A stretch of DNA of 64,000 nt, taken from assembly GCF_014202425.1 (NCBI RefSeq), contig NZ_JACHGT010000024.1, positions 1 to 64,000 on the forward strand, written 5' to 3'. A model generated the notes under the pieces. The model did no database searches, was not told the DNA's origin, and was given only the letters and a program-made list of their open reading frames with translations. This DNA comes from Phytomonospora endophytica. GTDB taxonomy: Bacteria > Actinomycetota > Actinomycetes > Mycobacteriales > Micromonosporaceae. This document shows positions 19,764 to 25,236 of this stretch, piece after piece (within the stretch, counting starts at the first letter, position 1; each line of letters starts with the position of its first letter). Both the position numbers and the translations under genes were made by a program.

Positions 19764-21758
19764 TCAGACGCGCGGATTCCAGGCCAGCGCGAGATCGCCG
19801 ACGGTGTCGGTCCCACGCTGCTGCGGCGCCGGGAGGCCCCGCGCGACCAGTGCGGTCCGCAGATGCGGGAAGAGATGCGCGACGCGGATCAGCTCCTCGC
19901 CGTTGTCGATCCCCTGGCGCAGCAGGGAGACCAGTGCGCCGGTGAAGGCCGAGTGGCGCTCGCCTTCGGGCGCGTGGGCACGGCGGGTCGGCGAGGTCGC
20001 CGCGAGGATGTAGGTCCCGGCGATGTCGAGCTGGCCCGTGGGATCGCCGTACTCGGCGAGGGTGCCGACGGCACGGCCGGCGTAGCAGCAGTCGAGGACG
20101 ACGACGCGGTTGCGGGCCGGGCTGTCGCGGACGAGGTCGCGCAGGCGGTCGTAGGGGAGCGCGGAATGCTTGCGGCGGGGGAGTTCGGTGGCCTTGAGGC
20201 CGAGATAGAGATCGCCGTCGGATTCGACGAAGCCGTGCCCGGCGAAGTAGACGAGGAGGGTGTCGGTGGCGGACTCGGCGGCCTCGGCGATGCGAGGGAG
20301 GTCGGTGATCGAGGGGTCGAGGTGACGGTGGACGCGGGCGGGGTCGAAGGCGCTGGCGAGGACGTCGGCGAGGTCGGCGAGGTTGTTGGCGACGGCGGGG
20401 ATGTCGGGGAGGGCGGGGTCGTCGTAGGCGCCGGTGCCGATGAGGAGGGCGGTGGAGGCGGGAGCGTGGGGCAGGCGGGTCGGCGAGCGGGACGGCTTGG
20501 GGCGGGCGGGTTCCGGTTCCTCGGCGAGGGTGATCTCGGCGGCGGGGATACCGGTGAGATCGGCGATCGTGGCGATGACGTCGTCGAGGCCCACCGGCGG
20601 GGTCCCCTCATCGGCCGGTGCCTTCATGCGCCGTGCCGCGCCGACCTCGTCGAGCAGGCCGATGGCCTTCGCTGGCAGATGGCGGTCGGTGATGAAACGG
20701 TCGGCGAGTTCGGCGACGGCGGACAGAACGCCCGAGCCGAATGTGACGCCGTGGTGCTCCTCGTAGGTGTCCCGAACGCCCAGCAGCACGGCACGCGTCT
20801 CCGCCACCGACAGTTCCGGCACCGGGATCGGACGGCAGTGACTGTCCAGAATGGACCCGCGGGCGGCATGGCGGCGGTACACGTCCGGCGGCATGGTGAG
20901 GATGACCTGGAGATCCCCGCGCGCGATCAGGGACCAGAACACCGACGCGACCGAGCCGGGTTCGCTGCGGGGGTGCAGATCGAGGTACCGGTCGGCGTTG
21001 TGCACGCAGAGGAGCACCGAGGACGCCGTCGCGGCCTTTTCGAAGATCACGCGCAGGCGCCCCTCGAAGTCGGTGCTCCGGTCGGTGATGAGCTCGTGCC
21101 AGTCGATGAGGACGAGTTCGCGGTCGAGCAGCCGCGGGGGCGCCTCGCCCGCGGCGAGGCGCCGGGCCAGTCCATTGAGGACGGCGCGCCGGCCCACACC
21201 GGCCTCACCGATGAGCACGGGGTTGTTCCGGGACCGGAGGGAGAGGATCTGGACGAGGCGGTCGATCACGCCGTCGCGGTTCAGGGCCGGGCGGACCCGG
21301 CCCTCGCGGGCGGCCTGCCCGAGACGAACTCCGAAGGGGCTGGGACGCGTCACGGCGACACTCAACGCCGACAGGGATCCGTCGGCGCGGGAGAGCAGGG
21401 CCCGGCCGCCTTCGTGCCGCAACAGGCCGAGCAGCAGGTCCGAGGCCTCGACGCGCTCGCCGCCGACCGCGTGGGACTCGGCCTGCGCGAGGGCGAGAAC
21501 GCGCCGAAGCTCGTTCGTCGGCGGCACCGCCGGCCCGGCCTCGTGAGGGCGCGACGACGCTCGGGAACGCAGGTTCGAGTACTCGTCATCGAAGCCGAGA
21601 TCGATCAGGTGCCGCTGGACGGGACTTCGTACGGCGGTGAGCGCCCACAGCAGCTCGCCCAGACCGGCTTCGGTGGATCCCTGATCCCGCGCGCGCAGCC
21701 GCGCGGCGGTCATCACATCCTGTCCGTAGCCGTCTTCGAGGTTCCAGCTCGACGCCAT
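19764..21758 (-). CDS. Clp N domain / degenerate AAA / caspase (C14) fusion
   Basis: 664-residue cytoplasmic protein. Residues 8-125 are two Clp N repeats. Residues about 155-410 align with the first AAA module of ClpA/ClpB/ClpC (LNRDGVIDRLVQILSLRSRNNPVLIGEAGVG; C-lid TYEEHHGVTF..ITDRHLPAKAIGLLDEV). Every ATPase signature is altered: Walker A is GEAGVGRR (184-191, Lys to Arg), Walker B is LLCVHNAD where Clp has an FIDE core, and the arginine finger segment is LDSHCRP instead of LERRF. In place of the second AAA ring is a caspase-like domain (435-664) with intact YFAGH508GF and DCC558YAG dyad. Inferred: a Clp-like scaffold or sensor controlling a protease. A terminator hairpin lies 20 bases upstream; the gene is probably monocistronic. 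Confidence 0.88.
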   Translation of the reverse strand: MASSWNLEDGYGQDVMTAARLRARDQGSTEAGLGELLWALTAVRSPVQRHLIDLGFDDEYSNLRSRASSRPHEAGPAVPPTNELRRVLALAQAESHAVGGERVEASDLLLGLLRHEGGRALLSRADGSLSALSVAVTRPSPFGVRLGQAAREGRVRPALNRDGVIDRLVQILSLRSRNNPVLIGEAGVGRRAVLNGLARRLAAGEAPPRLLDRELVLIDWHELITDRSTDFEGRLRVIFEKAATASSVLLCVHNADRYLDLHPRSEPGSVASVFWSLIARGDLQVILTMPPDVYRRHAARGSILDSHCRPIPVPELSVAETRAVLLGVRDTYEEHHGVTFGSGVLSAVAELADRFITDRHLPAKAIGLLDEVGAARRMKAPADEGTPPVGLDDVIATIADLTGIPAAEITLAEEPEPARPKPSRSPTRLPHAPASTALLIGTGAYDDPALPDIPAVANNLADLADVLASAFDPARVHRHLDPSITDLPRIAEAAESATDTLLVYFAGHGFVESDGDLYLGLKATELPRRKHSALPYDRLRDLVRDSPARNRVVVLDCCYAGRAVGTLAEYGDPTGQLDIAGTYILAATSPTRRAHAPEGERHSAFTGALVSLLRQGIDNGEELIRVAHLFPHLRTALVARGLPAPQQRGTDTVGDLALAWNPRV

Positions 21759-21814: not shown

Positions 21815-21900
21815 GGTGAGAGGGAAGGTCTGGTCGGTGCGGCCGCCGTCCACTGGAACGGCACGGACGCGTCCCGGTGAGAGGGAGGGTCTAGTAGGTG
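21815..21900. repeat. Imperfect 25-base direct repeat at the lipoprotein 3' end
   Basis: 21815-21839 and 21876-21900 match at 22 of 25 bases (shared core GGTGAGAGGGA). The second copy covers the stop codon and last codons of the lipoprotein gene; the first lies downstream of it. Confidence 0.75.
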
Positions 21901-22772
21901 TACGTGCTGCCGGTCGTCGCGATCGGCTTGCCGTCGTTGGCGAACTTCCCGTCCGGCGTCACCGCGAAGAACGTGCCGTCGGCACCGCCGTGCCCGTTGA
22001 CCTGACCGGGCGCGGTGTCCTGGGCGAACCGGTAGAGCGGCCAGCAGTCCAGCGAGCTCTGGGTGGAGCCGTCCTCGCGCTGGAAGCTCGTGATCGGGGC
22101 CTGGATGCCCTGCGAGCCCTCAGCCTTGATGGCGGGCACGGGAGGCCACGCGGTGGCGCACTGGCCGTTGCAGGTCGAGGCCATCGGGTCGTCGGTGTCG
22201 CCCTTGTGGCGGTAGAGGGCGTAGCCCTCGGCGTCGACGACGATCGTGCCCAGCTGCGGGTGCTGGATCGTGCTCAGAGGGCCCTTGGCGAGCACGGGCG
22301 CGGCGGGCTGGCCGGCGCGCTTGCCGTCGGGCGTGACCGCCCACCACTTGCCGTTGACGCCCTGCCCGAGGGTGTCCCCGGGGTTCTTGTCACCGGCGTA
22401 GCGGTACAGCAGGTAGTTGTTCAGCATCGACTGGCCGGAACCGTCGGAGCGGCTGAAACTGCCGAGAACGCTCGCGTCGATGCCGGTCAGGTTCGCCGCG
22501 TCGACGCTCGGCGAGGGCGGCCACGCCGCCGCGCATTCGCCTTCACAGTTGGACTTCGGCGGTTCGGAGGTGTCGCCGTCGAAGCGGTAGAGGACCCAGC
22601 CCTTCTCGTCGACGACGATCTCGCCGAGCTTCGGGTCGTCGATCGTCGACAGGGCCGCGCCCTCGGCCTCGTTGGCGACCTGGTCGGTCGCGGGACTGTT
22701 CGTGGTCGCATAGCCACACCCGGTGAGTCCGAGGACCAGTACGGAGGCGGCGACGATCATCAGCTTCTTCAT
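21891..22772 (-). CDS. Lipoprotein with two secreted-repeat (PF03640-type) domains
   Basis: 293-residue exported lipoprotein: signal peptide MKKLMIVAASVLVLGLTGC with lipobox LTGC (Cys19). Two copies of the roughly 110-residue secreted repeat of unknown function follow. Each contains a segment like VVDEKGWVLYRFDGDT or VVDAEGYALYRHKGDT, then C-x3-C with AWPP, then a Tyr-rich region ending in FFAVTPDGK or WWAVTPDGK. The conserved Cys pair probably forms a disulfide outside the cell. A perfect TGAACC-N16-CGTATC sequence upstream suggests control by the ECF sigma factor encoded 1.2 kb away. Biochemical function is unknown for the family; in other actinomycetes it co-occurs with ECF sigma genes. 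Confidence 0.88.
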   Translation of the reverse strand: MKKLMIVAASVLVLGLTGCGYATTNSPATDQVANEAEGAALSTIDDPKLGEIVVDEKGWVLYRFDGDTSEPPKSNCEGECAAAWPPSPSVDAANLTGIDASVLGSFSRSDGSGQSMLNNYLLYRYAGDKNPGDTLGQGVNGKWWAVTPDGKRAGQPAAPVLAKGPLSTIQHPQLGTIVVDAEGYALYRHKGDTDDPMASTCNGQCATAWPPVPAIKAEGSQGIQAPITSFQREDGSTQSSLDCWPLYRFAQDTAPGQVNGHGGADGTFFAVTPDGKFANDGKPIATTGSTYTY

Positions 22773-22813: not shown

Positions 22814-22895
22814 GCGCGAGTCTTCGATGGCCTCGATCGGCCGGCGGTCGATGCGGTGGACCGACCCTTCCGGCTCGTCGTGCCGCACACCTAGG

Positions 22896-22923
22896 GATAC
22901 GCGGGGTCGCGCGGATCGGTTCA
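22896..22923 (-). promoter_or_regulatory. ECF-type promoter upstream of lipoprotein gene
   Basis: On the minus strand TGAACC (22918-22923), 16 bases, CGTATC (22896-22901). The same motif and spacing precede the sigma factor gene. It resembles the promoter class of SigL/SigK-like ECF factors. Confidence 0.65.
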
Positions 22924-23010
22924 CCAGAAGTTCGGATTCGGTCAAGATTTATTGCGGCGTAAGGCATCCGTGCTGCTCAAGCGGCCCGTCCACGAGGTCT
23001 CGCCGACCGC

Positions 23011-23016
23011 TAGTCT
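23011..23016 (+). promoter_or_regulatory. -10 element, leaderless start of DUF1996 gene
   Basis: TAGTCT six bases before the ATG at 23023. This looks like a housekeeping promoter and does not contain the neighbouring ECF motif. Confidence 0.5.
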
Positions 23017-23022
23017 GCTTCC

Positions 23023-23907
23023 ATGCGAACGGACATCGCCGTCCGTGCGGTCCTCGCGGTGGCGCTCGCCCTCGTGGCCGCCGGGTGCGGGAACGCCGGC
23101 ACGGCCGACATCACCACCGTGCCCGCGGTGGCCGCGCCGCCGGCGCTGCCCGGCGCGTCGACGGGCGAGTACCGCTTCGACTGCGGCGACGGCGGTGAGG
23201 GACACCGCAACGCCGACAACATGATCACCAGTCCCGGCCGGAGCGGCGCCGCCCACCACCTCCACGAGTACGTCGGGAACGTCTCCACGGGCGCGGGCTC
23301 CACCGACGCCTCGCTGGCCGCCGCCGAGACGACGTGCCTCAACGGCGACCGCTCGGCCTACTACTGGCCGGTCCTGCGCACCGGCGAACCACACCGCGGC
23401 GAGGTGCGGACTCCGTCCAATGTGGAGTTGAGCTTTCTGGGAAACCCGACGGGGCCGGTGATCGCCGCCCCCGACACCATGCGGATGCTCGCCGGGAACG
23501 CCAAGGCCGTCACCAGCGGCGGTGCCTTCGCCCGGCCCAGCTGGTCCTGTGAGGGCTTCCGCGACCGCCTCACCAACACCTATCCGTCCTGTCCCGACGG
23601 TGCCGCGACCCTGCGGATCCACGACTTCCCCAGCTGCTGGGACGGCCGCCGCACCGACAGTCCCGACCACCGCGCGCATCTGGCCTATCCGTCTCCGGTC
23701 AACGGTGCCTGTCCTCAAGGGACTTTCGCGGTGCCGCGGTTGCGCGTGGTCCTGTCCTATGAACTCGACGGCGACGACTTCGTCATCGACACCTTCCCCG
23801 AGGAGAAGAACAGCGCCGTCGCCGATCACGCCGACGCGGTGCTGGCCATCGGGCCCGAGCTGATGGCGGCGATCGTCGGCTGTCTCAACGGTGAGCGGAG
23901 CTGCTGA
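23023..23907 (+). CDS. DUF1996 domain lipoprotein
   Basis: 294-residue protein with a lipoprotein signal (LVAAGC lipobox, Cys22) and a DUF1996 domain. Family features: the His-rich segment HHLHEYVGN, YYWPVL, VELSFLGNPTGPV-type sequence, FPSCWDGRR and DHRAHLAYP. The many His and Cys residues suggest metal binding or disulfides on the outer face of the membrane. No enzymatic activity is established for DUF1996. It lies between the divergent secreted-repeat lipoprotein and the sigma/anti-sigma pair, in the same direction as the latter, 79 bases upstream of the sigma gene. Confidence 0.88.
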   Translation: MRTDIAVRAVLAVALALVAAGCGNAGTADITTVPAVAAPPALPGASTGEYRFDCGDGGEGHRNADNMITSPGRSGAAHHLHEYVGNVSTGAGSTDASLAAAETTCLNGDRSAYYWPVLRTGEPHRGEVRTPSNVELSFLGNPTGPVIAAPDTMRMLAGNAKAVTSGGAFARPSWSCEGFRDRLTNTYPSCPDGAATLRIHDFPSCWDGRRTDSPDHRAHLAYPSPVNGACPQGTFAVPRLRVVLSYELDGDDFVIDTFPEEKNSAVADHADAVLAIGPELMAAIVGCLNGERSC

Positions 23908-23924
23908 GAAAAGTCCGGCGCGGG

Positions 23925-23952
23925 TGAACCGTTCCGCCGCCGCCTACGTGAT
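23925..23952 (+). promoter_or_regulatory. ECF-type promoter upstream of the sigma factor gene
   Basis: TGAACC (23925-23930), 16 bases, CGTGAT (23947-23952), 34 bases before the sigma factor ATG. It matches the lipoprotein promoter and implies autoregulation. Confidence 0.65.
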
Positions 23953-23986
23953 GGAGCGTGACGGCAGATGAGAGAGGGACGAACCC

Positions 23987-24538
23987 ATGGCTGGACTGTG
24001 GCCGCGCAAGCGCGAGCGAGCCAGCGGTGAGGCGTTGGTCCGGTCGCTGTACGAGGAGCACGGTTACGCGCTCCTCGCCTACGCGACCCGGATCACCGGT
24101 GACCGCGCGGCGGCCGAGGACGTGCTGCAGGAGACCCTGTTGCGGGCCTGGAAGAACGCCTCGTCGCTGTCCGACACCGAGGGCTCGGTACGGGCGTGGC
24201 TGTTCACGGTCGCGCGCAACATCATGACCGATCGCTTCCGCGCCAAGGCCTCCCGCCCGGCCGAGCAGGCCGAGAGCGAGACGGTCGTGCCGGTCGCCAA
24301 GGACCACGCTCCGCAGGTGGTCGACTCGATGCTGGCCTACCAGGCCCTCGACACGCTGTCCGAGGAGCATCGCGACGTGCTGGTCGAGCTGTACCTGCGC
24401 GGTCGCAGCGTCACCGAAACGGCCGAGACGCTGGGCATACCGCCCGGTACCGTCAAGTCGCGTTCCCATCACGCGTTGCGCAAGCTGAGGGACCGTTTCG
24501 GTCCGACGATGACGGCGCTGGAAGGAGTGGCGGGATGA
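23987..24538 (+). CDS. ECF sigma factor (SigL/SigK-like)
   Basis: 183-residue extracytoplasmic-function sigma factor. Region 2 at about 22-90 (LYEEHGYALLAYATRITGD, EDVLQETLLRAWKN, RAWLFTVARNIMTDRFR) and region 4 at about 115-170 (LDTLSEEHRDVLVELYLRGRS, then GIPPGTVKSRSHHALRKLRD). There is no extra C-terminal domain. The downstream gene overlaps it in ATGA and encodes a zinc-finger anti-sigma factor. Two TGAACC-N16-CGT promoters (its own and that of the lipoprotein) are its probable targets. Promoter type and gene context point to the SigL/SigK group, but a precise orthology is not claimed. Confidence 0.92.
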   Translation: MAGLWPRKRERASGEALVRSLYEEHGYALLAYATRITGDRAAAEDVLQETLLRAWKNASSLSDTEGSVRAWLFTVARNIMTDRFRAKASRPAEQAESETVVPVAKDHAPQVVDSMLAYQALDTLSEEHRDVLVELYLRGRSVTETAETLGIPPGTVKSRSHHALRKLRDRFGPTMTALEGVAG

Positions 24539-25236
24539 GCGAGCACGAGCAGCGACTGCTGGGTGCCTACGCGCTGGGCACCGTCGACCCGGACGAGCGC
24601 CGGGAGATCGAGGCGCACCTGGCCGACTGTGCCGAGTGCCGCGCGGAACTGGACGAGCTGGAGGAGGTGAAAGTCATGCTGGACGCGGTACCGCCCGAGG
24701 CGATGCTGGAAGGCCCGCCCGGAGCCGACCACGTGCTCGACGCGACCCTGGCGAAGATGCGGGTCGCGGAACGCTCGGATTCCCTGCGGCGCCGGTTGTT
24801 CACGCTCGCCGCGGGCGTGGTCGCCATCGCGGCCGTCGCGGTCGGCGGTGTCCTCGCCGGACGGGCCACGGCGCCCGCCCCCGACGCGCTGCCGCCGCCG
24901 CCCGGCGTGACGGTCCCGCCTCCGGTGGAGGGCACGAAGTCGGGCACGACGGTCGACGCCGACACCGGCGCCCGCCTCACCGCCTCGGTGATCCCGGCCG
25001 ACGGCTGGGTACGGGTGACCACCGCCGTCAACGGGATCCCCGAAGGCGAGCTGTGCCGGATCGAGGTCCTCGGTGCCGACGGGACCGTCGAGGTCGCCGG
25101 AAGCTGGCGGGTCTCGGCGAAGGGTGCCGCCGACGGGACCACATTGGACGGTGCGGCGATCGTCCCGCCCGACGAGGTCAGCGCCGTGCGGATCGTCAAC
25201 ACGGCCGGGAAGGTGTTCGTGTCATTGGCCTTCTAG
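24535..25236 (+). CDS. Membrane anti-sigma factor with zinc-finger domain
   Basis: 233-residue single-pass membrane protein that would hold the upstream sigma factor inactive. The N-terminal anti-sigma domain contains EAHLADCAECRAEL, the HxxxCxxC zinc motif (His29, Cys33, Cys36). One membrane helix lies at about 87-108 (LAAGVVAIAAVAVGGVLAG), then a Pro-rich linker, then an extracytoplasmic RskA-like beta domain (VRVTTAVNGIPEGELCRI). The CxxC pair suggests redox control, as known for RslA-type factors, and the outer domain suggests regulated proteolysis. It is coupled to the sigma gene by a 4-base overlap. Confidence 0.92.
   Translation: MSEHEQRLLGAYALGTVDPDERREIEAHLADCAECRAELDELEEVKVMLDAVPPEAMLEGPPGADHVLDATLAKMRVAERSDSLRRRLFTLAAGVVAIAAVAVGGVLAGRATAPAPDALPPPPGVTVPPPVEGTKSGTTVDADTGARLTASVIPADGWVRVTTAVNGIPEGELCRIEVLGADGTVEVAGSWRVSAKGAADGTTLDGAAIVPPDEVSAVRIVNTAGKVFVSLAF

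Follow-up and report, generated by a model that had tools for sequence, protein, structure and literature searches.

Introduction

The −35 consensus of the ECF sigma factor SigL from Mycobacterium tuberculosis is TGAACC, while SigK promoters are of the CCATCC/CCGAAT type. Most ECF sigma factors use AAC/CGT promoters and are autoregulated (PMC8103513; PMC3817407). SigL contacts the −10 positions of its promoters, such that His54 sets the −12 base and Asp60 the −11 base, and G is favored at −11 (PMC6372665). In RslA, oxidation releases zinc and weakens the binding to the sigma factor (PMC2877774). RskA does not depend on a zinc motif (PMC7406223); the anti-sigma factor described here has an HxxxCxxC. 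A further relevant case is SCO0930 of Streptomyces coelicolor, which the part of PMC6295645 that cites Gordon et al. 2008 places in the SigU regulon, i.e. a secreted protein of the SCO0930 family is there under the control of an ECF sigma factor.

Here, we analyze a locus of Phytomonospora endophytica that resembles the SigL/RslA system. It is located in a contiguous stretch of 64,000 nucleotides, called the window in the following. An initial annotation proposed that two promoters of the form TGAACC-N16-CGT at this locus define an ECF regulon. This claim goes too far: the conserved core consists of two transcription units, and the wider regulon is unproven because the motif also occurs on both sides of a second ECF pair in the genome.

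Results and Discussion

The locus contains, in this order, a lipoprotein gene (21891..22772, minus strand), a DUF1996 gene (23023..23907, plus strand), an ECF sigma gene (23987..24538, plus strand) and an anti-sigma gene (24535..25236, plus strand). The anti-sigma gene follows directly 3' of the sigma gene, with a 4-nt overlap at the sigma stop codon, and this arrangement is kept in relatives. The host genome is 8.35 Mb in size, and its nearest relatives include Actinorhabdospora, Catenuloplanes and Longispora, which we take to be Micromonosporaceae. It can be mentioned that the protein encoded next to the lipoprotein gene (19764-21758) joins a ClpA/ClpB-like AAA part to an EACC1-type caspase domain, and that Actinorhabdospora has a similar long gene at the equivalent position.

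The annotation had placed TGAACC-N16-CGTATC on the minus strand before the lipoprotein gene and TGAACC-N16-CGTGAT on the plus strand before the sigma gene, both with a 16-nt spacer, and this is exactly what is found. On the lipoprotein side, the site is TGAACCGATCCGCGCGACCCCG-CGTATC at 22923-22899 (minus strand), and the ATG at 22772 lies 126 nt after the CGT. On the sigma side, it is TGAACCGTTCCGCCGCCGCCTA-CGTGAT at 23925-23949 (plus strand), and the ATG at 23987 lies 37 nt after the CGT. From the exact motif and its conservation in other genomes, both are predicted to be ECF promoters, the latter one autoregulatory. By SigL numbering, transcription of the lipoprotein gene is predicted to start near 22887 (minus strand), which would give a 5' leader of ca 115 nt, and the start for the sigma operon is predicted near 23961 (plus strand).

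The two sites share an extended −35 element, TGAACCG[AT]TCCG, which the remaining 83 exact N16 sites of the genome all lack, and even the shorter start TGAACCG[AT]T is found, among the exact N16 copies, only at these two positions. The probability of an exact and correctly oriented site is ca 0.001 per 200-bp upstream region. Scanning the window with spacers of 15–18 yields 5 matches compared to 1.55 expected, a mild excess (at least 5 matches in 3 of 100 shuffles).

The sigma factor has 183 residues and consists of Pfam Sigma70_r2 (residues 21–88) and Sigma70_r4 (residues 120–168), joined by a short linker, with no further domain above the cut-off, as is characteristic of an ECF (group 4) sigma factor. 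The annotation likened the promoters to the SigL/SigK class. In a phmmer search against solved structures, SigL of M. tuberculosis is the best match (126.5 bits, E 1.1e-35), the next one reaching 52.6 bits and SigK 48.2 bits. The SigL half of the comparison can thus be retained, while the SigK class was rejected on the basis of these scores and of both sites being TGAACC/CGT. The best NCBIfam subfamily model, PRK09645, presumably the SigL model, gives 199.8 bits, which is just below its cut-off of 202, and the protein is for this reason called SigL-like here and not SigL. It keeps the Asp60 of SigL, while His54 is replaced by Asn, and the lipoprotein site carries A at −11.

The anti-sigma factor (233 residues) has a zinc domain with the HxxxCxxC motif (zf-HC2, 3.6e-10), one hydrophobic segment, located by eye near residues 92–113, and a C-terminal domain. 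RslA is its best match among solved structures (7.8e-06), and H28, C32 and C35 of the motif are invariant in six aligned homologues. The N-terminus weakly resembles RskA_N (26.5 bits, below the cut-off of 27), and the residues at its start, LGAYALG..., are similar to the AS19-1 consensus given in PMC7406223. Redox sensing by this protein is a possibility suggested by the zinc motif that it has in common with RslA.

By itself, the promoter motif is weak evidence, and its genome-wide enrichment at promoters is only modest. Exact TGAACC-N16-CGT occurs 85 times in the genome and the exact N17 version 37 times; all of the former and 31 of the latter were classified with a home-made gene caller, according to which 63 of the 85 N16 sites are intragenic. 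Fourteen of the 85 are promoter-positioned, compared to 5.0% of random positions (p 9e-5). However, TGAACC without CGT, used as a control in the same loci, is promoter-positioned in 19/153 cases (12%), and the excess over this control is not significant (p 0.17). For the refined motif TGAACC-N16-CGT[A/G], 9 of the 37 genome copies are promoter-positioned, compared to 1.9 expected at random positions, and the difference from the control has p 0.03. Counting exact motifs was rejected as proof of a regulon, the enrichment being too weak, and since most exact copies are intragenic, scans of this genome with the exact motif are unreliable unless conservation is added.

Other candidate targets in the same genome, all of them unproven, are a type 2A encapsulin, a trypsin-like protease, a LacI regulator and a 47-aa protein. 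The encapsulin shell gene (L014:1501-3023, G000:C3:26851) is SrpI-like with a cyclic-nucleotide-binding domain, and an exact TGAACC-N16-CGTGAC is located 136 nt upstream of it. The SigL targets besides sigL described in PMC6372665, namely pks10 and Rv1139c, are not among the sites inspected here.

The decisive evidence comes from conservation across genomes. We considered a close set, comprising 27 loci that encode close homologues of the sigma factor in members of the same family (95 kb in total), and a wider set of 29 sigma homologues. The close set contains 37 TGAACC-N16-CGT[A/G] sites compared to 0.42 expected, i.e. a ca 88-fold excess, while all the other spacers between 8 and 26 together give three sites, one each at 12, 17 and 23. 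Such a site, a predicted promoter with AAC at −35 and CGT at −10, precedes the sigma gene in 21 of the 27 loci, as it does in the window. In the wider set, TGAACC-N16-CGT is found upstream of the sigma gene in 23 of 29 loci and never with a spacer of 15 or 17, and among all 4096 hexamers TGAACC ranks at the top with 23 loci, the next hexamer being present in 2. The base following the CGT is a purine upstream of all 24 sigma genes compared (13 G and 11 A). When the upstream region of the sigma gene is aligned between four genera, conservation outside coding sequence is highest in the blocks formed by the −35 element, its extension and the CGT.

A linked Lipoprotein_15 gene is present in 18 of the 27 close loci and, by our own count, the exact site precedes it in 13 of these 18, whether the gene is divergent, downstream of the anti-sigma gene or ahead of the sigma gene. 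In two loci (L315 and L316), the lipoprotein gene lies ahead of the sigma gene on the same strand, and the site is found before the lipoprotein gene and not before the sigma gene, as for the head of an operon. In Actinorhabdospora, where the genes are arranged in the same order, the counterpart before the lipoprotein gene is AGAACCGATCCG-N10-CGTGAA with the same spacer. It was identified by the motif scan, since the MAFFT alignment of the upstream regions, which differ in length, placed the site wrongly. In the closest relative, the −35 hexamer of the lipoprotein site is the one-base variant AGAACC, the 16-nt spacer and the extended −35 element being kept. In other genomes, Lipoprotein_15 genes lie at most 10 kb from a SigL-like sigma gene in 15 of 33 cases, and some lipoprotein genes have the motif although no sigma gene is close by. 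Since the 27 loci share a common ancestry, the counts do not represent independent events, yet the flanking DNA has diverged and the gene order has changed several times.

Further sites were observed in the relatives. In seven loci of the same family with the order sigma, anti-sigma, lipoprotein (L223, L226, L227, L230, L242, L294 and L295), a conserved backward TGAACC-N16-CGT[A/G] lies between the anti-sigma and lipoprotein genes, antisense to the former and adjoining a conserved GGACAATTTCACA-like block. Behind it, no convincing open frame was found in these loci, and it could possibly drive an antisense or small RNA; as read by eye, the lipoprotein gene seems to be served by a separate promoter of the CGTA type on the opposite strand. 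In L226, L227, L228 and L242, the lipoprotein or anti-sigma gene is followed by a DUF4142 gene, a possible further member of the circuit. Another Actinorhabdospora locus (L278, G007:C5:79000-98900) has four TGAACC-N16-CGTA sites within ca 12 kb, at 2949, 11316, 15093 and 15100, located 4–34 nt before type VII secretion-like genes (FtsK/SpoIIIE ATPase, WXG100, EccB), which suggests an ECF-controlled secretion cluster in that genus. A 1126-aa protein encoded at L278 has no match in the genome of the window.

The lipoprotein, the predicted target, is a secreted protein of 293 residues with Lipoprotein_15 repeats (Pfam PF03640, 2.2e-49, four stretches) and belongs to the SCO0930 family (NCBIfam NF040526, 292.8 bits, above the cut-off of 275). 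Its predicted structure, obtained from four sequences, is of fair quality (mean pLDDT 78.9, pTM 0.48), and a comparison of the model with the PDB gave no significant match. Sequence searches against solved structures with the lipoprotein and with the DUF1996 protein returned nothing useful.

The DUF1996 gene encodes a lipoprotein-like protein of 294 residues (PF09362, 7.5e-25) and lies between the two ECF promoters, without the ECF motif directly upstream; its position is the same in several relatives. The annotation ascribed to it a different, housekeeping-like promoter, and we concur: a −10 box, TAGTCT-N6-ATG, is located at 23011..23025 (plus strand), and its spacing fits a putative housekeeping-type promoter of the leaderless kind. 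The support comes from conservation and not from a consensus match, as the box recurs as TAGCCT-N6-ATG in Actinorhabdospora, as TAGTCT-N6-ATG in Longispora and in the looser form TAGnnT in some further family members, while a scan of the upstream region for the strict sigma-70 consensus TTGACA/TATAAT gave nothing. Weak −35 elements are common in actinobacteria, and this negative scan does not rule out such a promoter.

Taken together, the locus is, with high probability, an autoregulated ECF switch of the SigL/RslA type, with the divergent Lipoprotein_15 lipoprotein as its conserved core output. What is observed directly is the pair of sites with its exact spacing, the conservation of both sites at the same positions and the relationship to SigL/RslA; from this, we infer the following operation. 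In the unstressed cell, the membrane anti-sigma factor would bind the sigma factor and silence it, and an envelope or oxidative signal would release it. The free sigma factor would then direct RNA polymerase to TGAACC-N16-CGT[A/G] promoters, raising the expression of its own operon in a positive feedback and, in parallel, that of the divergent secreted-repeat lipoprotein gene. The DUF1996 gene would be expressed separately from its leaderless-type promoter.

Three other explanations have to be weighed against this circuit. That the pair of elements is a chance match without regulatory meaning, TGAACC and CGT being frequent in a high-G+C genome, would fit the mostly intragenic genome copies and the mild excess in the window. 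It is hardly credible given the excess in the homologous loci, the near-exclusive 16-nt spacing and the strong preference for A or G after the CGT; judged from these sequences, a chance origin of the sites is untenable. Slightly less remote, though very improbable, is that only the site of the sigma gene is functional, while the lipoprotein site arose by chance or is a relic, with the gene being expressed from another promoter. The exact site is indeed absent from 5 of the 18 linked lipoproteins and altered in the closest relative, the Streptomyces orthologues do not have it, and the predicted leader measures ca 115 nt. On the other hand, it stands in the right place and orientation in the other 13, and the AGAACC variant retains the spacer and the extended −35 element.

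The most serious of the three, although still unlikely, is that these are real ECF promoters of a class shared by several paralogous SigL-like sigma factors, such that the lipoprotein gene would be activated partly or mainly by sigma factors other than the one in the window. On contig C3 of the genome, there is a second SigL-like sigma/anti-sigma pair (G000:C3:541722, within G000:C3:540919-543624, L187:4920-7625; sigma 46% identical) with TGAACC-N16-CGTAGT before both flanking genes, one of which codes for a Rieske lipoprotein and the other for a DUF2231 membrane protein, and because of this the motif is probably shared by paralogous sigma factors, which may read these sites as well. More distant sigma homologues also have the motif, and the lipoproteins that carry it with no sigma gene close by point in the same direction. 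Against this stand the extended −35 element, exclusive to the pair in the window, and the lipoprotein accompanying this sigma factor in genome after genome. We therefore favor the circuit described above, in which the sigma factor of the window would activate both transcription units. An unlikely addition to it is that the lipoprotein is more than an output and belongs to the switch itself as a dedicated extracytoplasmic component, e.g. as a sensor or feedback regulator that acts on the anti-sigma factor. If true, this would explain its constant partnership with the sigma factor and the same promoter despite the changing gene order and orientation.

Conclusions

The proposed circuit is small and conserved across this bacterial family, and it is well supported as a further case of a system of known kind. 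The analysis gives Lipoprotein_15, a large secreted family of unknown function, a specific and testable candidate regulator. For Micromonosporaceae and related bacteria, it also defines the promoter by a precise rule, TGAACC-N16-CGT[A/G].

As to the known systems, the locus differs from S. coelicolor SCO0930 in that TGAACC-N16-CGT was not found upstream of the Streptomyces-type orthologues. The motif was therefore rejected as a common feature of these genes, the link between the sigma factor and the lipoprotein is not universal, and both the promoter and the sigma factor probably differ between Streptomyces SCO0930 and the lipoprotein studied here. With SigK/RskA of M. tuberculosis, the locus has in common the combination of an ECF sigma factor and a membrane anti-sigma factor, including the weak RskA_N resemblance, but the sequence match is far weaker than to SigL. 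The promoter type of SigK/RskA also differs from TGAACC/CGT. The closest system is SigL/RslA, which provides the best solved-structure relatives of both proteins and has the same succession of a sigma gene and a membrane anti-sigma gene with HxxxCxxC. As for SigL, a sigma-dependent promoter, here a predicted one, precedes the sigma gene, and the −10 element is of the CGT type (PMC6372665, PMC2877774). What sets the present locus apart from SigL/RslA is the SCO0930-family lipoprotein as the putative target, the replacement of His54 by Asn and the apparent tolerance of A at −11.
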